Assembly (NCBI GenBank): GCA_005223185.1
Contig: NJBN01000004.1
Span: 248,001 to 312,000 of the forward strand
DNA from: a candidate division LCP-89 bacterium B3_LCP
GTDB lineage: Bacteria; Electryoneota; B3-LCP
Length of the DNA: 64,000 bases
Direction: 5' to 3'
A program made the position numbers and the translations under genes. Numbering within the stretch: the stretch's first letter is position 1; each line of letters opens with the position of its first letter. Shown here piece after piece: positions 20,239 to 49,990 of this stretch. Under the pieces are notes generated by a model. That model ran no database searches, was not told the DNA's origin, and saw only the letters and a list, made by a program, of their open reading frames with translations.

Positions 20239-20556
20239 TTACACACAGCCGGTAGGCTTGGGAAGCCCGGCTACTTTACATGCACCTTTAGCCGGTCCGG
20301 AGGGGAACATATCATAGATTTCTTTCAGTGTGAAACCAGACTGTTTGCAAAGCTTGCGGATCATGGGGGCAATACCAAACTGCTGGTAGTAATCACGCAG
20401 GTAGTTAACGACTTTCCAGTGATCATCAGTTAAATCGTCAACCGCTTCTGTACTAGCAAGTGCGAGAGCTACACTCTCATTCCATGCTTCCGGTTCTTCC
20501 ATGAAGCCATCTTCATCGACTTCGATTTTTACCTCTTTCCATTCGAATGTTGCCAC
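20239..20556 (-). CDS. dsrC: Sulfur-carrier protein DsrC
   Basis: DsrC carries the sulfur of sulfite as a trisulfide between DsrAB and the DsrMKJOP membrane complex. The 105-residue protein ends in the flexible arm GPAKGACKVAGLPKPTGCV with both required cysteines: the penultimate Cys104 and Cys93 eleven residues before it. This marks it as true DsrC rather than TusE or a regulatory paralogue. The start (MATFEWKEVKIEVDEDG) is preceded by an AGGAGGAATT ribosome site. It lies 45 bp after dsrL and 89 bp before the next gene. Confidence 0.96.
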   Translation of the reverse strand: MATFEWKEVKIEVDEDGFMEEPEAWNESVALALASTEAVDDLTDDHWKVVNYLRDYYQQFGIAPMIRKLCKQSGFTLKEIYDMFPSGPAKGACKVAGLPKPTGCV

Positions 20557-39846: not shown

Positions 39847-41433
39847 TTATTTAAGCAAAATCATCTTTCGTGTAACTGTGAAATCGTCACTTTCCAGGCG
39901 GCAGAAGTAAATACCTGAGGGCAGTCCGGTTGCTTCAAAGATTATTTCATGATATCCTGATTTCTTGAAACCATCTATCAGTTCATACACCTGACATCCT
40001 TTGATATCAAAGATTCCCAGATTGACATGACCAGCGATCTGCAGTTCGAAAGAAATCGTCGTATTAGGATTGAAAGGATTAGGATAGTTCTGCAATAATG
40101 CCGTAGATGTTGGATAACCAGTATCATTCTTTTCGGGCTTAATCCCCAAAGCACCAGCAGCACCATTTCCTCCATAAATCCCCATATCATTTGTAATCGT
40201 ACCCAAGGATGGGAACAATGCCATACCGAGATTCCAGGGATCTTCCGGATCATAGTAATCTGCTGCTGGATTTCCAGCATCGATGCATGGTGAACTTACC
40301 TGCAGATTTAGGTCGAGGTTTAGTAAGTCGGTGAACTGAGGATCAAGGTAAATATTGGAAAGATCATCGCAGGGATCCCCATTTGCGTTGATGCCTGTTA
40401 TCGTCCCTAAAGATGCAGGCACTGAACCATGGAAATCGCCTCCGGAATTATCATAGAAGTTACAGAATTGCACTTCTGCTGATGACCCGTCGAAATATAT
40501 AGCACCAGCGGACTCAGAGGCTGAATTACTGCAGAAGACGCAGTTCATAAAAATAGAATTCTGTGAGGAAGCGAGATAGCAGCCTCCGCCCTTGAGGGTT
40601 CCGTTATTATTAACGACAGCGCAGTTCTCCAGAACTGGTTCTGAATAGTCACTATAGATTCCACCGCCGAAGTAGTAGCATATGTTATCCGAAATAGTGC
40701 AATTTTTGAAGATGGGACTTGAGTCCCAGCGCACCATTATTCCACCACCGTAATCCCCAGCGCTGTTATTGCTGATAATTGTATTAAGTATTAGTGGATT
40801 GGCACCATGTTCGACTGTGATGCCACCACCGTCATAGGTAGCACTATTGTTGGTAATGATGGAATTTATGATAGTGGGACTGCCACCGTAATTAATACTG
40901 ATACCTCCAGCGTAGTCGTTGGAAGTATTTCCGGCAATCACACAGTTGCTTATAGTAGGACTGCAGGCACGACAGCGGATCCCGCCGCCATTAGGTCCTC
41001 AACCAACGCAGGTAGAATAATTTTCAACGATGTAACAATGAGTAATAGTGGGATCGGATACCTGACACCATATACCGGCACCGCTGCTGCTATATCCATT
41101 GCGGATCACGAAACCGGCTAACACAGCCGCCGATGTTTCCTCGTTATTAAACGTAACCACACTTCCGCTGGAATCGCCATCGATGATAGTTTGGCTAATA
41201 TAAGAGGTATCGCCGCTGACCAAGAAGAGGCTTCCTATGACCAGGTCTTTCCCATCGTAATCGATGTTTTCAGTGTAGGTCCCCGGCTGGACCAATATGG
41301 TATCGCCAACGATAGCGTTATCAATCGCAACCTGTATAGTGTCATAATCTACAGGTACGTTTATGATTGTAGCAGAAGCAAAACCTGCGTATGCGAGTAT
41401 TCCTATAATCAGATGTGATAGTTTTTTCATCAT
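39847..41433 (-). CDS. Secreted beta-helix/T9SS protein with in-frame UGA (CxxU), candidate selenoprotein
   Basis: One continuous frame runs 528 codons, broken only by TGA at codon 145 (40999-41001). It starts with a signal peptide (MMKKLSHLIIGILAYAGFAS). A right-handed beta-helix body follows (repeated GGGI, SPTI and N-x-x-x motifs such as NSATYDGGGITV and NSAGDYGGGIMV), then a T9SS type A sorting domain (NYPNPFNPNTTISFEL... ending RKMILLK). Reading continuity across TGA is clear: YSTCVG, UGA, GPNGGGIRCRACSPTISNC. The UGA lies in a CxxU setting. A GC-rich hairpin (40971-40989) follows at the bacterial-SECIS distance. It lies 48 bp after the ggt gene on the same strand. Selenocysteine is inferred; a nonsense mutation is the alternative. 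Confidence 0.7.
40971..40989 (-). promoter_or_regulatory. SECIS-like hairpin after the UGA codon (gene 1)
   Basis: Starting 10 nt after the UGA on the minus strand, an 8-bp stem (GGCGGCGG with CCGCUGUC, two G-U pairs) closes a GAU loop that begins 18 nt after UGA. A G-first loop 16-37 nt after UGA is the known bacterial SECIS pattern. Part of the stem is forced by the Gly-Gly-Gly-Ile-Arg-Cys codons, so the evidence is moderate. Confidence 0.45.
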
Positions 41434-41481
41434 TGTTTCTCTTTCGATTTATTTCTTAATGCGGTTATAATCGGAACTCAA

Positions 41482-43218
41482 TCAGTACCCCTTCGCTCCC
41501 CCCTCAACTCTCGAATCGGTACCGCCATAGATCAATCCAGTTTCCAGATCGATTAAGATCGCCTGCGCTGCTGACCAACTACCTCCAAAACGAACCTTAT
41601 GACCGCGCAATATCAGGTTCTGGATGACGTCGTAGGGAATGCCGCTTTCTAAGTAGATGCGATCAGGCAGCCACTGATGGTGTATGCGGGGTGCATCGAC
41701 CGCCGCCTGAATGGTCATTTCATGATCGATGACGTTTAAGATCACCTGCAGGACGGTGGTGATTATGCGCGGTCCTCCCGGAGAACCGAGGATCATAAAC
41801 GGCGCGCCGTCATAAAAGACGAAGGTGGGCGTCATGGACGACAAGGGGCGTTTGCTCGGAGTAATTGCGTTTGCTTCAGCGCCTAACAGACCGAAATAAT
41901 TCGGCACACCCGGCTGGGAGGAAAAATCATCCATTTCATTGTTGAGAAAAATTCCCGTACCCGGTATCACATAACCGGATCCAAACCCCATGTTTATGGT
42001 GGCGGTCATCGCCACCATGTTACCCCACTGATCCAGCACGGAAAAATGAGTGGTCTGCTTGCCGCCGGGAAAAGTCTCCTCATCCTGGCTGTACGGCAAC
42101 GGATCGCCCTCACTCAAGACCTTCGCAGCCTGAAATCTGAAGATCGTATTGCTCAGGCTGTCGGCATAAGCTTTTGAAAGAAGTCCCGCCAGAGGAATAT
42201 CCGCAAAATCGGGATCACCCATGAACACTGAACGGTCAGCAAAAGCGAATTTCATCGCTTCAGCCATGAGGTGAATGGTTTCGGAGGAATTGTGTCCTAA
42301 GTAACCCAAATCGTAACGTTCCAGTATGTTGAGCATCTGTATCAGATGTGCTCCTCCAGAGCTGGGCGGAGGCATGGAATAAATCGAAAACCCATGGTAA
42401 GTGCCCATTACCGGTTCGCGAATAGCCGTAGAATATTCTTTCAGATCCTTTAGCGTGATCAACCCCTTTTCCTTCTTCATAGCGTGTACAATCTTGCTGG
42501 CAATTTCGTCATGGTAAAAAGCCTCTTTGCCTTCGTCTGCTATTATGCGGTAGGTATTGGCTAAGTCATACTGAATCAACCGTTCGCCCAGTCCTAAAAG
42601 CGTGCTGTCAGCGTGGAAGAGAATGTCAAAGGTGGAAGGGAAACGAATAAGCTTGTTACGATGGTGTTCCAGAACCCGGATGTAGGTCTGAGATAGTTCA
42701 AATCCGGTATCAGCTAGAGCGATAGCTGGTTCCATTACCTGTCCTAAGCTCATGGTGCCGTATTCATCCAGCAATTGCGAAAGACCTTTCAGGTGCCCCG
42801 GCACTGCACCCGCCAGAACGCCAATTACGGAAAGTTCAGGTATAATCTGGTCTGTCTGCTTATCCACATACATGTCTTCCCTGGCGGCAAGAGGCGCTTT
42901 CTCTCTGGCGTCCATGACGATCGTTTCCCAGCTATCAACCAGGTGCAACAACGTAAAACTGCCGCCGCCAATTCCCGATGAATAACCTTCCACTACGCCC
43001 AATGCAAAGGCGGTAGCTACCGCCGCATCCACCGCGTTACCGCCGCTTTTTAGAATGTCCAGTCCTATCTGGGATGCCAGCGGGTGAGCGGATACCACCA
43101 TGCCGCTATCCGCCCATACCGGTCGGGGCGCGGCAGCTTGAAGGGGTGATGTGTGAATAACGGTAAGTACGGCTGCAACAGCCAGTATTATAACGTTTCT
43201 GGTAAAGTTCATATTCAA
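41482..43218 (-). CDS. ggt: Gamma-glutamyltransferase (periplasmic, Ntn-hydrolase)
   Basis: Ggt hydrolyses or transfers the gamma-glutamyl bond of glutathione-like thiols outside the cytoplasm. The 578-residue precursor has a signal peptide (ILAVAAVLTVIHTSPLQAAA). The autoprocessing site is in KQTTHFSVLDQWGNMVAMTA (second Thr as the expected N-terminal nucleophile of the small subunit), and the large subunit contains AREKAPLAAR. Length is normal. It is divergent from the UGA-containing beta-helix gene at 43500, which shares its 281-bp upstream region, and is followed after 48 bp by the other UGA-containing gene, suggesting functional grouping. Confidence 0.94.
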   Translation of the reverse strand: MNMNFTRNVIILAVAAVLTVIHTSPLQAAAPRPVWADSGMVVSAHPLASQIGLDILKSGGNAVDAAVATAFALGVVEGYSSGIGGGSFTLLHLVDSWETIVMDAREKAPLAAREDMYVDKQTDQIIPELSVIGVLAGAVPGHLKGLSQLLDEYGTMSLGQVMEPAIALADTGFELSQTYIRVLEHHRNKLIRFPSTFDILFHADSTLLGLGERLIQYDLANTYRIIADEGKEAFYHDEIASKIVHAMKKEKGLITLKDLKEYSTAIREPVMGTYHGFSIYSMPPPSSGGAHLIQMLNILERYDLGYLGHNSSETIHLMAEAMKFAFADRSVFMGDPDFADIPLAGLLSKAYADSLSNTIFRFQAAKVLSEGDPLPYSQDEETFPGGKQTTHFSVLDQWGNMVAMTATINMGFGSGYVIPGTGIFLNNEMDDFSSQPGVPNYFGLLGAEANAITPSKRPLSSMTPTFVFYDGAPFMILGSPGGPRIITTVLQVILNVIDHEMTIQAAVDAPRIHHQWLPDRIYLESGIPYDVIQNLILRGHKVRFGGSWSAAQAILIDLETGLIYGGTDSRVEGGAKGY

Positions 43219-43247
43219 GTCCAGTATTTAGGGATGATTTTCTAATA

Positions 43248-43276
43248 AATATAGCAAATATGGTTGACAAAGGCAA
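43248..43276 (-). promoter_or_regulatory. Promoter of ggt
   Basis: On the minus strand, TTGCCT (43271-43276), 17 nt, TATATT (43248-43253), followed by a short leader to the start at 43218. Confidence 0.6.
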
Positions 43277-43357
43277 GCGATTAGTTAGGGGAGTGGAAAA
43301 GGCAATCTCGCCTCCTGCCCAATTTTCTCCAGGCTCAGGCAGAAAAAAAAATGGTTC

Positions 43358-43386
43358 TTGACTTTGCACTTATAATTTGTTATATT
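43358..43386 (+). promoter_or_regulatory. Promoter of the second UGA-containing beta-helix gene
   Basis: TTGACT (43358-43363), 17 nt, TATATT (43381-43386). A leader of about 107 nt leads to the ATG at 43500, and AAAGGAGCC provides the ribosome site. Confidence 0.7.
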
Positions 43387-43499
43387 GTAGCTGCAAACAA
43401 TTAGGATATGACCAGTTATGAGAAAATGATAGAGACAGGGCTTAACCTCGCTGTTCTCAACTGTTACAATCCAGCTATAAAGCTAAAAGGAGCCTCCGC

Positions 43500-45335
43500 A
43501 TGAGAAGACTAAAGTTTCTTATGATGTTATCAACTGTCATAGTGTTTATTTCAAGCACGGTAACGTATGCGCAAACGCAGATCAGCGGTCCACAATCTGG
43601 AACGTTAGGACCTGGCACCTACGAGGTAATTGGGGATATTCAGGTTCTCAACGGCACCACCCTGAATATCATCCCGAGAACTACCTTTGAACATTCCGGG
43701 AATTACACCTGGGAAATAACAGGTCAGTTAAACGCTGAAGGTGCTGAAGGCGACAGCATTTACTTCATACGCCAAAATCCCATCGAAGATCATCGCTGGG
43801 GAGGTATAAGGTTTTTCTATGGAGCGACTAATTTCAGCACGATTGACTACTGCGTTATCGATCACTGCTATCATGACTGGACGGTGTTTCTGAATGTCGG
43901 CGCTGGCCTTTACGTTGAAGCGGTTGATCTAACAGTCAGCAATAGCAGAATCTCGAACTGTCTGAACGTCTGGGACGGTGGTGGGATTTACGCTTTCGCT
44001 GCCAATATAGTGATTGAAAACTGCCTCATAACAGGAAACAGCACAGAGGGTGAAGTCAATGCCGGTGGTATATTTCTGATGAATAGTGACGGCGCTATCG
44101 TGCGTAACTGCGTCATAGCTGACAACACCTCTGCAAGCACGTGAGATACTTGTGGTGGCGGAGGGATCCGCTGTGAGAATTCCGACGCAGAAATCTCACA
44201 CAATCAGATATACGACAATGTTTCAGCCATGCACGGTGGAGGTGTGTTAGCAGAGAGTTGTGCACCCGACCTGATCAACAATACTATAACTCAGAACCAA
44301 GCCGATCCGTTTTTCCCCGATGCGAGAGGCGGCGGGATTCGCGCTAATCCTGGTGCAATGTTCGTCGGCGCTAACAACATAATATATAATAACACCGGTT
44401 TCGGGGACCCTGAATATTCCGGTAATGTGAATCTGAATTACAGTTGCTGTTCGGTTGTCCTCAGCGGGACTGGCAATATCACAAATAATCCCAGGTTTGT
44501 GGATCCCGCAACTGATGATTTCAACCTGCAGTCAAGTTCACCTTGCATCGATACCGGTGATCCTTTGAGTCCCAACGATCCCGATGGAACCAGAGCGGAT
44601 ATGGGCGCGCTTTACTTCGATCAAACTGCCTATCCCAGCTGGACCATAAACGCCTGGTTAAACGGTGGTTCCCCGGTTCCTCCCGGTGGCGGTAACCTCC
44701 TCTGGGGTGTTTACGCAGAGAATACCAGCGGCCAGGTGCTAAACGGTGATATCTGGGTGGCTTTCGAATATGAAGGTGGTCTTCCGACTATACTGCTAAG
44801 TAGAGCGCTGGTCAACTACCAGCCGGGCTGGGCGGTAAATCGTCCTGACAATTGGTACCCGGTTCCCCCCGACTGGCCGGGTGGTAACTACATGTGGTAT
44901 GTGCGCACCGGTGATCTGGATCCGTACGTGGTCTGGGAAGAAGGCGGTTTTGCCTGGTTCAAAGACGGTGTAGCTGATGGCGGTTATGATTTCACCAATA
45001 ACTTGCCCACTTCCGGATACTCAGATCCGTTCGATGAGATCATCAGCGGTACTGCTGAGCTGTTTGTGCCGGAATCCTTCGAAGTCATCGGCGCTTACCC
45101 TAATCCCTTCAACCCTTCGACAGTTATCAGCTATCACTTGCCAGATGCAAGTCTGGTTCATATGATGGTGTATGACTTATCAGGTCGCAAGGTCGCAGAT
45201 CTGGTCAACGGCTGGCGGGATGCGGGTGTGCATGAAGTTACGTTTGATGGTTCTGGTCTGGCTTCCGGTTTATACATTTACCGCCTAACGACCGGAGACC
45301 ACACGGCTTCCGGTAAAATGATACTGGTGAAATAA
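43500..45335 (+). CDS. Secreted beta-helix/T9SS protein with in-frame UGA (UxxC), candidate selenoprotein
   Basis: One frame of 611 codons is broken only by TGA at codon 215 (44142-44144). A signal peptide (LMMLSTVIVFISSTVTYAQ) precedes a parallel beta-helix body (DGGGIYAF, NAGGIFLMNSDGAIVRNC, GGGIRCENSDAEISHN, HGGGVLAESCAPDLINN). A second sandwich-like region and a T9SS type A sorting domain follow (GAYPNPFNPSTVISYH... ending GKMILVK). The protein sequence flows across TGA: NTSAST, UGA, DTCGGGGIRC. This is a UxxC setting, mirror-image to the CxxU of the paralogue at 39847-41433. The SECIS-like hairpin at 44158-44171 follows. The alternative is a nonsense mutation at nearly the same repeat position in both genes. 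Confidence 0.7.
44158..44171 (+). promoter_or_regulatory. SECIS-like hairpin after the UGA codon (gene 2)
   Basis: GCGGA-GGGA-UCCGC forms a perfect 5-bp stem with a G-rich tetraloop. The loop begins 19 nt after the UGA, within the 16-37 nt bacterial SECIS window. The local coding motif (Gly-Gly-Ile-Arg) shapes part of it. Confidence 0.45.
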
Positions 45336-49118: not shown

Positions 49119-49990
49119 ATCCCTCCAGAAATGGGGGGATTTTTTATGTGTAAAAAACGATTTTTTTACATTTCCGGTTGGCGACAGATTTGACGCAGGC
49201 GATTTGATTCTTCAGCACAAAAACGACAGAAATTTTGACTCCCCCGCACGAAATTTAAAATTACGACATATTTGTCGTTTTCAGGGGTTATGTGATTGGT
49301 TTTCAGTTGGTTTAGGTTGTCAGTCATATTTGTCGCCAATGACAGATGTGTCGTTGTCAAGAAGATGAGAATGGGAGTGAGAAAGGGGAGGATAGATGGA
49401 GTGAAAGTTGTAGATATTCGTAGTATTTGGGAGTTGTTTGTGGTTATATATATAATATACAACAATATTGGGCGGAATGCAAGGGGGAAGTGGGATTTAT
49501 GGGGTTCAGGGTTCGGGATTCAGGGATCTGTGAATGGATGGGAAGATTTGTATAACACTTTGAACACCTCTGGATTCCCGCGTGCGCGGGAATGACAGTC
49601 TTGGAAGCGTGAGATTGCTTCGTCCCTTCGGTCCTCGCAATGACGGTTCGTGGGCGCATGGGTTTGATTTTCAATCCTGAATGGGTGGATTTGTCTACAC
49701 TTTGGACTTCTCTGGATTCCCGCATACGCAGGAATCCAGAGAACAAACAAAAAGCACCAACCTACCTGGACATCGAACGATATTCCCACAGCAGAGCTGT
49801 GGGGCACCAAAATGTTGGGTTGTCCCGTAGGGATGGCTACGCCGCGCTGTGCTTAACCCAACCTACTGAATACTAACTTTAGAATGAGGGCAATGTCATT
49901 CTGGCTTGTCCAGAATCTGACATTGCCCTGCTGTCAGATTCCCGAGGCGCTTCGCTTCCGGGAATGACAGCTTCAGGTTTTTCCACAAAA
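49119..49990. repeat. Gene-free stretch with dispersed repeats and an inverted CGACA element
   Basis: No convincing gene from 49061 to 50093. A second hairpin with T run (ATCCCTCC/GGGGGGAT, 49119-49145) is followed by an AT-rich segment with near-inverted ends GGCGACAG (about 49180) and TGTCGCC (about 49330) and a central ACGACATATTTGTCGT. Dispersed repeats then follow: CTGGATTCCCGC...GCGGGAATGACA (about 49567-49593), GAGATTGCTTCG...GCAATGAC (49611-49644), CCCACAG-CAGAG-CTGTGGG (49786-49804) and GTTGGGTT...AACCCAAC with TCCC-GTA-GGGA (49812-49865). Confidence 0.6.

Follow-up and report, generated by a model that had tools for sequence, protein, structure and literature searches.

In-frame UGA codons in two beta-helix genes

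Two genes in the DNA analysed here, a 64,000-nucleotide stretch from the genome of a poorly known LCP-89 sediment bacterium (the window), each contain a lone in-frame TGA, which raises the question of whether this codon acts as a stop, is a mutation, or is read as selenocysteine (Sec; U). An earlier note on this DNA had proposed that both genes encode extracellular selenoproteins. The features concerned are:

39847..41433, minus strand: UGA beta-helix gene, 528 aa, with N-terminal leader, PF13229 and C-terminal T9SS sorting domain
40999..41001, minus strand: in-frame UGA (U145) in a CxxU context (TCVG-U)
43500..45335, plus strand: UGA beta-helix gene, 611 aa, with N-terminal leader, PF13229 and C-terminal T9SS sorting domain
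44142..44144, plus strand: in-frame UGA (U215) in a UxxC context (U-DT-C), invariant together with C218 in alignment A3

Translation with TGA as U gave complete proteins of 528 aa (U145) and 611 aa (U215), in agreement with the claim that each gene keeps one frame across its TGA. The surrounding residues are STCVG-U-GPNGGGIRC and SAST-U-DTCGGGGIRC, and the CxxU and UxxC contexts were thus as described. Both proteins matched PF13229 (Beta_helix) at 75.6 and 64.6 bits against a curated Pfam cut-off of 25.9, consistent with the claimed beta-helix on either side of the TGA, and both exceeded the cut-offs for PF18962 (Por_Secre_tail) and TIGR04183. A hydrophobic N-terminal leader is apparent in both translations, while the sorting domain of both genes lies only 3' of the TGA. 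Since they combine a putative N-terminal export leader with a C-terminal T9SS sorting domain, the full-length products would be expected to cross the outer membrane, and secretion of both proteins is predicted; a product terminated at the UGA would be without the sorting domain. The many sorting domains encoded in this genome suggest that the T9SS secretion machinery is present. Between the two UGA genes lies a gamma-glutamyltranspeptidase gene (41482-43218, minus strand).

In the whole window, the only TGAs with at least 100 open codons on either side were those of the two genes and one at 49520 (minus strand), which appears to be non-coding. TGA terminates 9 of the 37 long ORFs in the window, which rules out genome-wide reassignment of UGA, and one of the UGA genes has TGA as its own terminator.

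Conservation of the UGA within the genome and across the phylum

The motif N-x-S-x-x-U-G-[ST]-C-G-G-G-G-I-R-C or U-G-S-x-C-S-G-I-Y-C was found in many beta-helix genes. Based on hairpin-model and profile searches, this genome (G000) carries 13 intact UGA beta-helix genes, namely the two in the window and eleven more, together with a 5'-truncated UGA beta-helix copy, a UGA FG-GAP gene and a gene for a small T9SS protein:

C16:55055, minus strand: 5'-truncated UGA beta-helix copy (L348), with the UGA and hairpin kept and the upstream half absent
C16:312992, minus strand: small secreted T9SS protein (L347), KYA-U-DC, with a GAU hairpin and no helix, a single case

A covariance model of the hairpin described below produced 15 matches in the genome at E<0.01 (12 training sites and three new ones), every one with an in-frame TGA at its 5' end; they fell in the 13 intact beta-helix genes, the FG-GAP gene and the truncated copy. 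The beta-helix protein itself has about 200 matches in the genome, many of them via the sorting domain alone and most without an in-frame UGA.

Of the 39 phylum genomes compared, those with true hits were the six that make up the window's family, each representing its own genus, and, outside this family, G037 and G038. R1 hits in G002, G032 and G034 were rejected because they had no matching in-frame TGA. The UGA is conserved in G010-G014, G037 and G038, and also in TA06 bacterium SM23_40, a genome that, judged by its label, is apparently from outside the phylum, where two beta-helix genes (L316, L322) carry the same UGA motif, possibly through either transfer or deeper ancestry. Records with a UGA homologue include Meg19_1012_Bin_459, SURF_9, DeMMO3_2 and Candidatus Tariuqbacter arcticus. 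When the profile of the region's protein was compared with the 39 genomes, the top 33 matches each had exactly one TGA; the best TGA-less match reached an E-value of 4.5e-16, while the weakest of the group's full-length UGA matches had 1.3e-26. The type I proteins have a Cys at +3 in 31 of 32 cases. UxxC is nevertheless not universal, since L054 has no partner Cys at +3 or +4.

TGA occupies the same position in ~43 beta-helix genes from eight related genomes, which is more than chance would give and speaks against the two nonsense mutations that the earlier note had listed as an alternative. An assembly error is ruled out by the homologues with TGA in other MAGs. Although the copy at C16:55055 is truly 5'-truncated, the position, the stop codon and the hairpin are all the same in the eight related genomes and the TA06 MAG, and a scan of the window plus ~230 kb of further genome stretches revealed no version of the motif with TAA or TAG. 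We therefore consider it extremely improbable that these genes are split pseudogenes or the result of nonsense mutation or assembly error.

A selenoprotein is usually supported by homologues that have Cys where it has Sec, although this is not a requirement. The profile detected no Cys-for-U orthologue of the beta-helix families in the 39 phylum genomes. A search of genome contigs, by pattern rather than by full homology, gave 50 matches and no relatives, and viral contigs gave 0 matches; pattern matches in Akkermansiaceae, Verrucomicrobiales, Acidobacteria and Leifsonia were discarded as chance, lying outside long open frames. In these searches, the beta-helix families thus lacked the Sec/Cys pairs by which selenoproteins are usually recognised. 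The comparison with homologues suggested earlier thus had a mixed outcome, with UGA at the site in seven related MAGs and the TA06 MAG and Cys at the site in none.

A hairpin with a GAU loop follows the UGA

The SECIS-like hairpins of the window are:

40969..40991, minus strand: SECIS-like hairpin with GAU loop starting 17 nt after the UGA, -13.5 kcal/mol
44157..44172, plus strand: SECIS-like hairpin with GGATC at 44164-44168

While a hairpin is indeed present after each UGA, the loop start of 18-19 nt given in the earlier note had to be revised: folding of the hairpin region placed the loop start 17 nt 3' of the TGA at 40999 and 18 nt 3' of that at 44142, where the hairpin pairs in a shifted register; in the register that its relatives use, the distance is 20 nt. 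At all sites GGATC is located 15-19 nt 3' of the TGA. Published limits for bacterial SECIS (bSECIS) elements are a loop of 3-9 nt, a stem of 4-16 bp, a distance of 16-37 nt from the UGA, a G within the first two loop positions and an MFE of at most -7.5 (PMC13188914). The proposed bSECIS check showed 45 of 46 sites to lie within these limits, both window sites among them; the one exception, L106, is beyond the energy limit.

The earlier note had also cautioned that shared Gly-Gly-Ile-Arg codons might force part of the hairpin. This was ruled out, as the Gly-Ile codons are GGG-ATC in 43 of 43 cases in the U coil compared to 10 of 218 in the other coils of the same proteins (Fisher p=5.6e-40), which indicates that the RNA is constrained. 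The residue after Ile-Arg, at +10, tracks the hairpin stem, being Cys with GCGG..TGC, Leu with GAGG..CTC and His with GTGG..CAC. Alignment A1 contains both-sided changes in 5 of 7 pairs, with 96% of cells paired. A GAU loop was present at 74 of 75 sites in seven protein contexts, where stem pairing at positions 1-6 was.88-1.0, and in within-family arm shuffles 0 of 2000 paired as well as the actual stems. The selD hairpins have loops other than GAU.

Other UGA-containing genes

Comparison of sel-gene neighbourhoods revealed a conserved UGA in selD, in FG-GAP/T9SS proteins, in two thioredoxin/TlpA-like proteins and in YCPG-U T9SS proteins. Several further conserved-TGA candidates from this comparison were dropped because they were in antisense or low-information frames. 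The genes retained besides selD are:

L057:7500-9119, minus strand; L288, L290, L291, L292; L271:1039, L275:341: FG-GAP/VCBS T9SS genes, YG-U-C
L272:8151-10466, plus strand; L270:13129-15000, plus strand; L274:2569: T9SS proteins of f2 genomes, YCPG-U-GGG[TD]PAS, GAU hairpin
L305:1124-1639 and L305:1647-2501, both minus strand; also L304, L271, L272, L273, L275, L277: adjacent thioredoxin/TlpA-like UxxC pair

The FG-GAP/VCBS proteins, whose genes are often in tandem and beside selD and tRNA-Sec (tRNA-A), are candidates for a second new family of secreted selenoproteins, and the YCPG-U-GGG proteins for a third. The thioredoxin-like (ResA/TlpA-like) UxxC proteins have Cys homologues, including a Cys form in this genome, and the same type of GAU hairpin lies 3' of their UGA. 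Being of a known type with Cys homologues, they serve as an internal positive control for the GAU SECIS.

Two further TGAs were observed. At L062:4614 (minus strand), a long, apparently amidohydrolase-like protein has an in-frame TGA (GEPSG-U-LLEMPA) flanked by 219 and 462 open codons, which may be either a nonsense mutation or recoding. At L053:13236 (plus strand), a protein that by eye is DsrC/TusE-like ends in AGLPFFG-TGA, with the C-terminal Cys expected at the TGA; the window protein compared with it (20239-20556, minus strand) ends in PKPTGCV.

Sec machinery and probable decoding of the UGA

The search for Sec machinery called for in the earlier note showed that it is present and partly duplicated: the genome encodes selB twice, selA twice, selD, and tRNA-Sec twice. 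SelA and selB exceed curated cut-offs, selD has its own in-frame TGA, and both tRNA-Sec genes have the anticodon tca. The machinery, the conserved UGA, the fit to bSECIS limits and the covariation of the hairpin together support the proposal of extracellular selenoproteins, and both genes very probably encode selenoproteins in which UGA is decoded as Sec. The lone UGA would be read by the cell's SelA, SelB, tRNA-Sec and SelD, guided by a hairpin that has the apical motif R-GAU-N and a loop start 17-20 nt 3' of the UGA, and the full-length product, with its leader and sorting domain, would be exported across the outer membrane. Insertion of Sec in vivo is what the genomic evidence leads us to expect.

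Hairpins 3' of stop codons can stimulate readthrough. The UGA might accordingly be a leaky stop at which the hairpin promotes near-cognate readthrough (Trp or similar), yielding a minor, T9SS-sorted and selenium-free form. The missing Cys orthologue, both in the 39 phylum genomes and in the contig pattern search, would suit such a stop, whereas a complete Sec machinery is encoded, the loop motif and spacing are those of thioredoxin-like UxxC selenoproteins that do have Cys homologues, the top matches of the profile always have UGA, and the partner Cys is kept in nearly all type I proteins. Readthrough is therefore very improbable, and decoding as Sec is the preferred explanation.

Two sets of Sec genes

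Trees separated a set A (SelA L009-type, SelB L002-type) from a set B (SelA L010-type, SelB L001-type). The tRNA-Sec of set A is L014-type, and two divergent tRNA types are present in the genome. The duplicates are:

L056-L061, L014, L015 (G000): duplicate divergent selA, selB and tRNA-Sec sets

UGA beta-helix genes occur in exactly 8 of the 39 phylum genomes, and these are the genomes with two selA genes (8/8 versus 0/31; 1.6e-8 on the assumption, which fails, that the genomes are independent). Each of the eight has both SelA types; G011 showed only one SelB, and G037 and G038 only one tRNA-Sec each, all three being incomplete MAGs. The f2 genomes contain set A only, while f3-f6 contain only other, B-like lineages. 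In f2 genomes GAU hairpins are found in genes for FG-GAP, TlpA-like and CPG-U proteins, and G004 has a cluster in which selB-A, selD-U, CPG-U, Trx-U, TlpA-U and selA-A lie together. Since the f2 genomes use GAU hairpins and have set A only, set A should read the GAU SECIS there, and we infer that it also reads the beta-helix UGAs of the window. In TA06 SM23_40, the tRNA-Sec gene adjoins an apparent selD start with UGA.

A tentative reading, to which we give somewhat less than an even chance, is that LCP-89 and its sister families possess two parallel Sec systems, of which set A, with its R-GAU-N SECIS, would be specialised for an extracytoplasmic selenoproteome. Under that reading, and just as tentatively, this selenoproteome might comprise the T9SS-sorted beta-helix, FG-GAP and CPG-U proteins and the periplasmic thioredoxin-like proteins. 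If true, nature would here provide an example of Sec decoding that is divided and possibly orthogonal. The joint occurrence of new families and two SelA/SelB/tRNA-Sec lineages offers a natural candidate for it that can be tested. The finding as a whole is wider than the earlier note, encompassing several secreted families, a GAU-loop variant of the SECIS and two Sec machineries.

Possible role of the Sec site

In an AF2 model (mean pLDDT 82.8), U215 and C218 are located in an inter-coil loop (~208-222) with block-mean pLDDT values of 86-97, and alignment A3 shows no variation at the U position, at C218 or in GG-GIR. Sequence and fold searches of the PDB returned no relative of the helix and no enzyme relative, the fold hits having a TM below 0.2 to the query. 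The most likely role, with roughly even prospects of being correct, is that of a surface-displayed selenenylsulfide redox site, as suggested by the UxxC/CxxU motif alone. Sec and a partner Cys (UxxC, UxxxC or CxxU) would lie in the loop between two beta-helix coils, and the redox site might be served by those thioredoxin-like UxxC selenoproteins of the set that are periplasmic or lipoproteins.

The same motifs in a loop could instead serve to hold a soft metal (e.g. Hg, Cu, Zn) through Sec and Cys at the cell surface, without redox cycling, and metal-binding selenoproteins are already known (PMC13188914, table). Against this, no metal-binding family matched except for a sub-threshold NosD hit, and the sibling proteins of the set are thioredoxin-like; metal binding is thus unlikely. 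We consider it equally doubtful that Sec is inserted mainly as a selenium-dependent display switch, such that cells without selenium would make a soluble half-helix lacking the sorting domain. The sorting domain is 3' of the UGA in every case, but sorting domains are C-terminal anyway, so that their order is not informative by itself, and the conserved +3/+4 Cys partner favours Sec chemistry.

Comparison with known systems

The deep-Sep study reported four selenoprotein genes in GCA_005223185.1, all of them known and none new, and its authors noted that selenoproteins lacking Cys homologues may escape the method (PMC12013277). None of the 119 prokaryotic selenoprotein families in a May 2026 inventory is a beta-helix, FG-GAP or T9SS-sorted entry (PMC13188914), nor was such a selenoprotein found in the open-access literature. 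The UGSC-containing protein NF041046 in the table of that inventory shares the letters U-G-S-C, but neither of the two window proteins matched it in NCBIfam at E<=0.001. In domain make-up they resemble T9SS-sorted right-handed beta-helix proteins (PF13229 plus PF18962), whereas most of the matches to the beta-helix protein in this genome are without an in-frame UGA. The range of selenoproteins would thereby come to include repeat scaffolds that are secreted and sorted by T9SS, a class missing from the inventory, and tools that need Cys homologues miss Sec-only families even in a genome that was already examined.

The candidate families have in common with bacterial bSECIS selenoproteins the in-frame UGA, a genome with SelB and tRNA-Sec, a hairpin within the limits and UxxC/CxxU motifs. 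They differ in their GAU loop, as the majority of bSECIS loops start with G[G|U], and in that no Cys homologue was found for the beta-helix families. With the UxxC thioredoxin/TlpA/ResA-like selenoproteins they share the GAU SECIS, the clade and UxxC, although those proteins have a thioredoxin fold and Cys homologues. The R-GAU-N hairpin provides a short signature that can be used to find more. Genomes with more than one tRNA-Sec gene are known; here, two divergent tRNA types are accompanied by two divergent SelA and SelB lineages.
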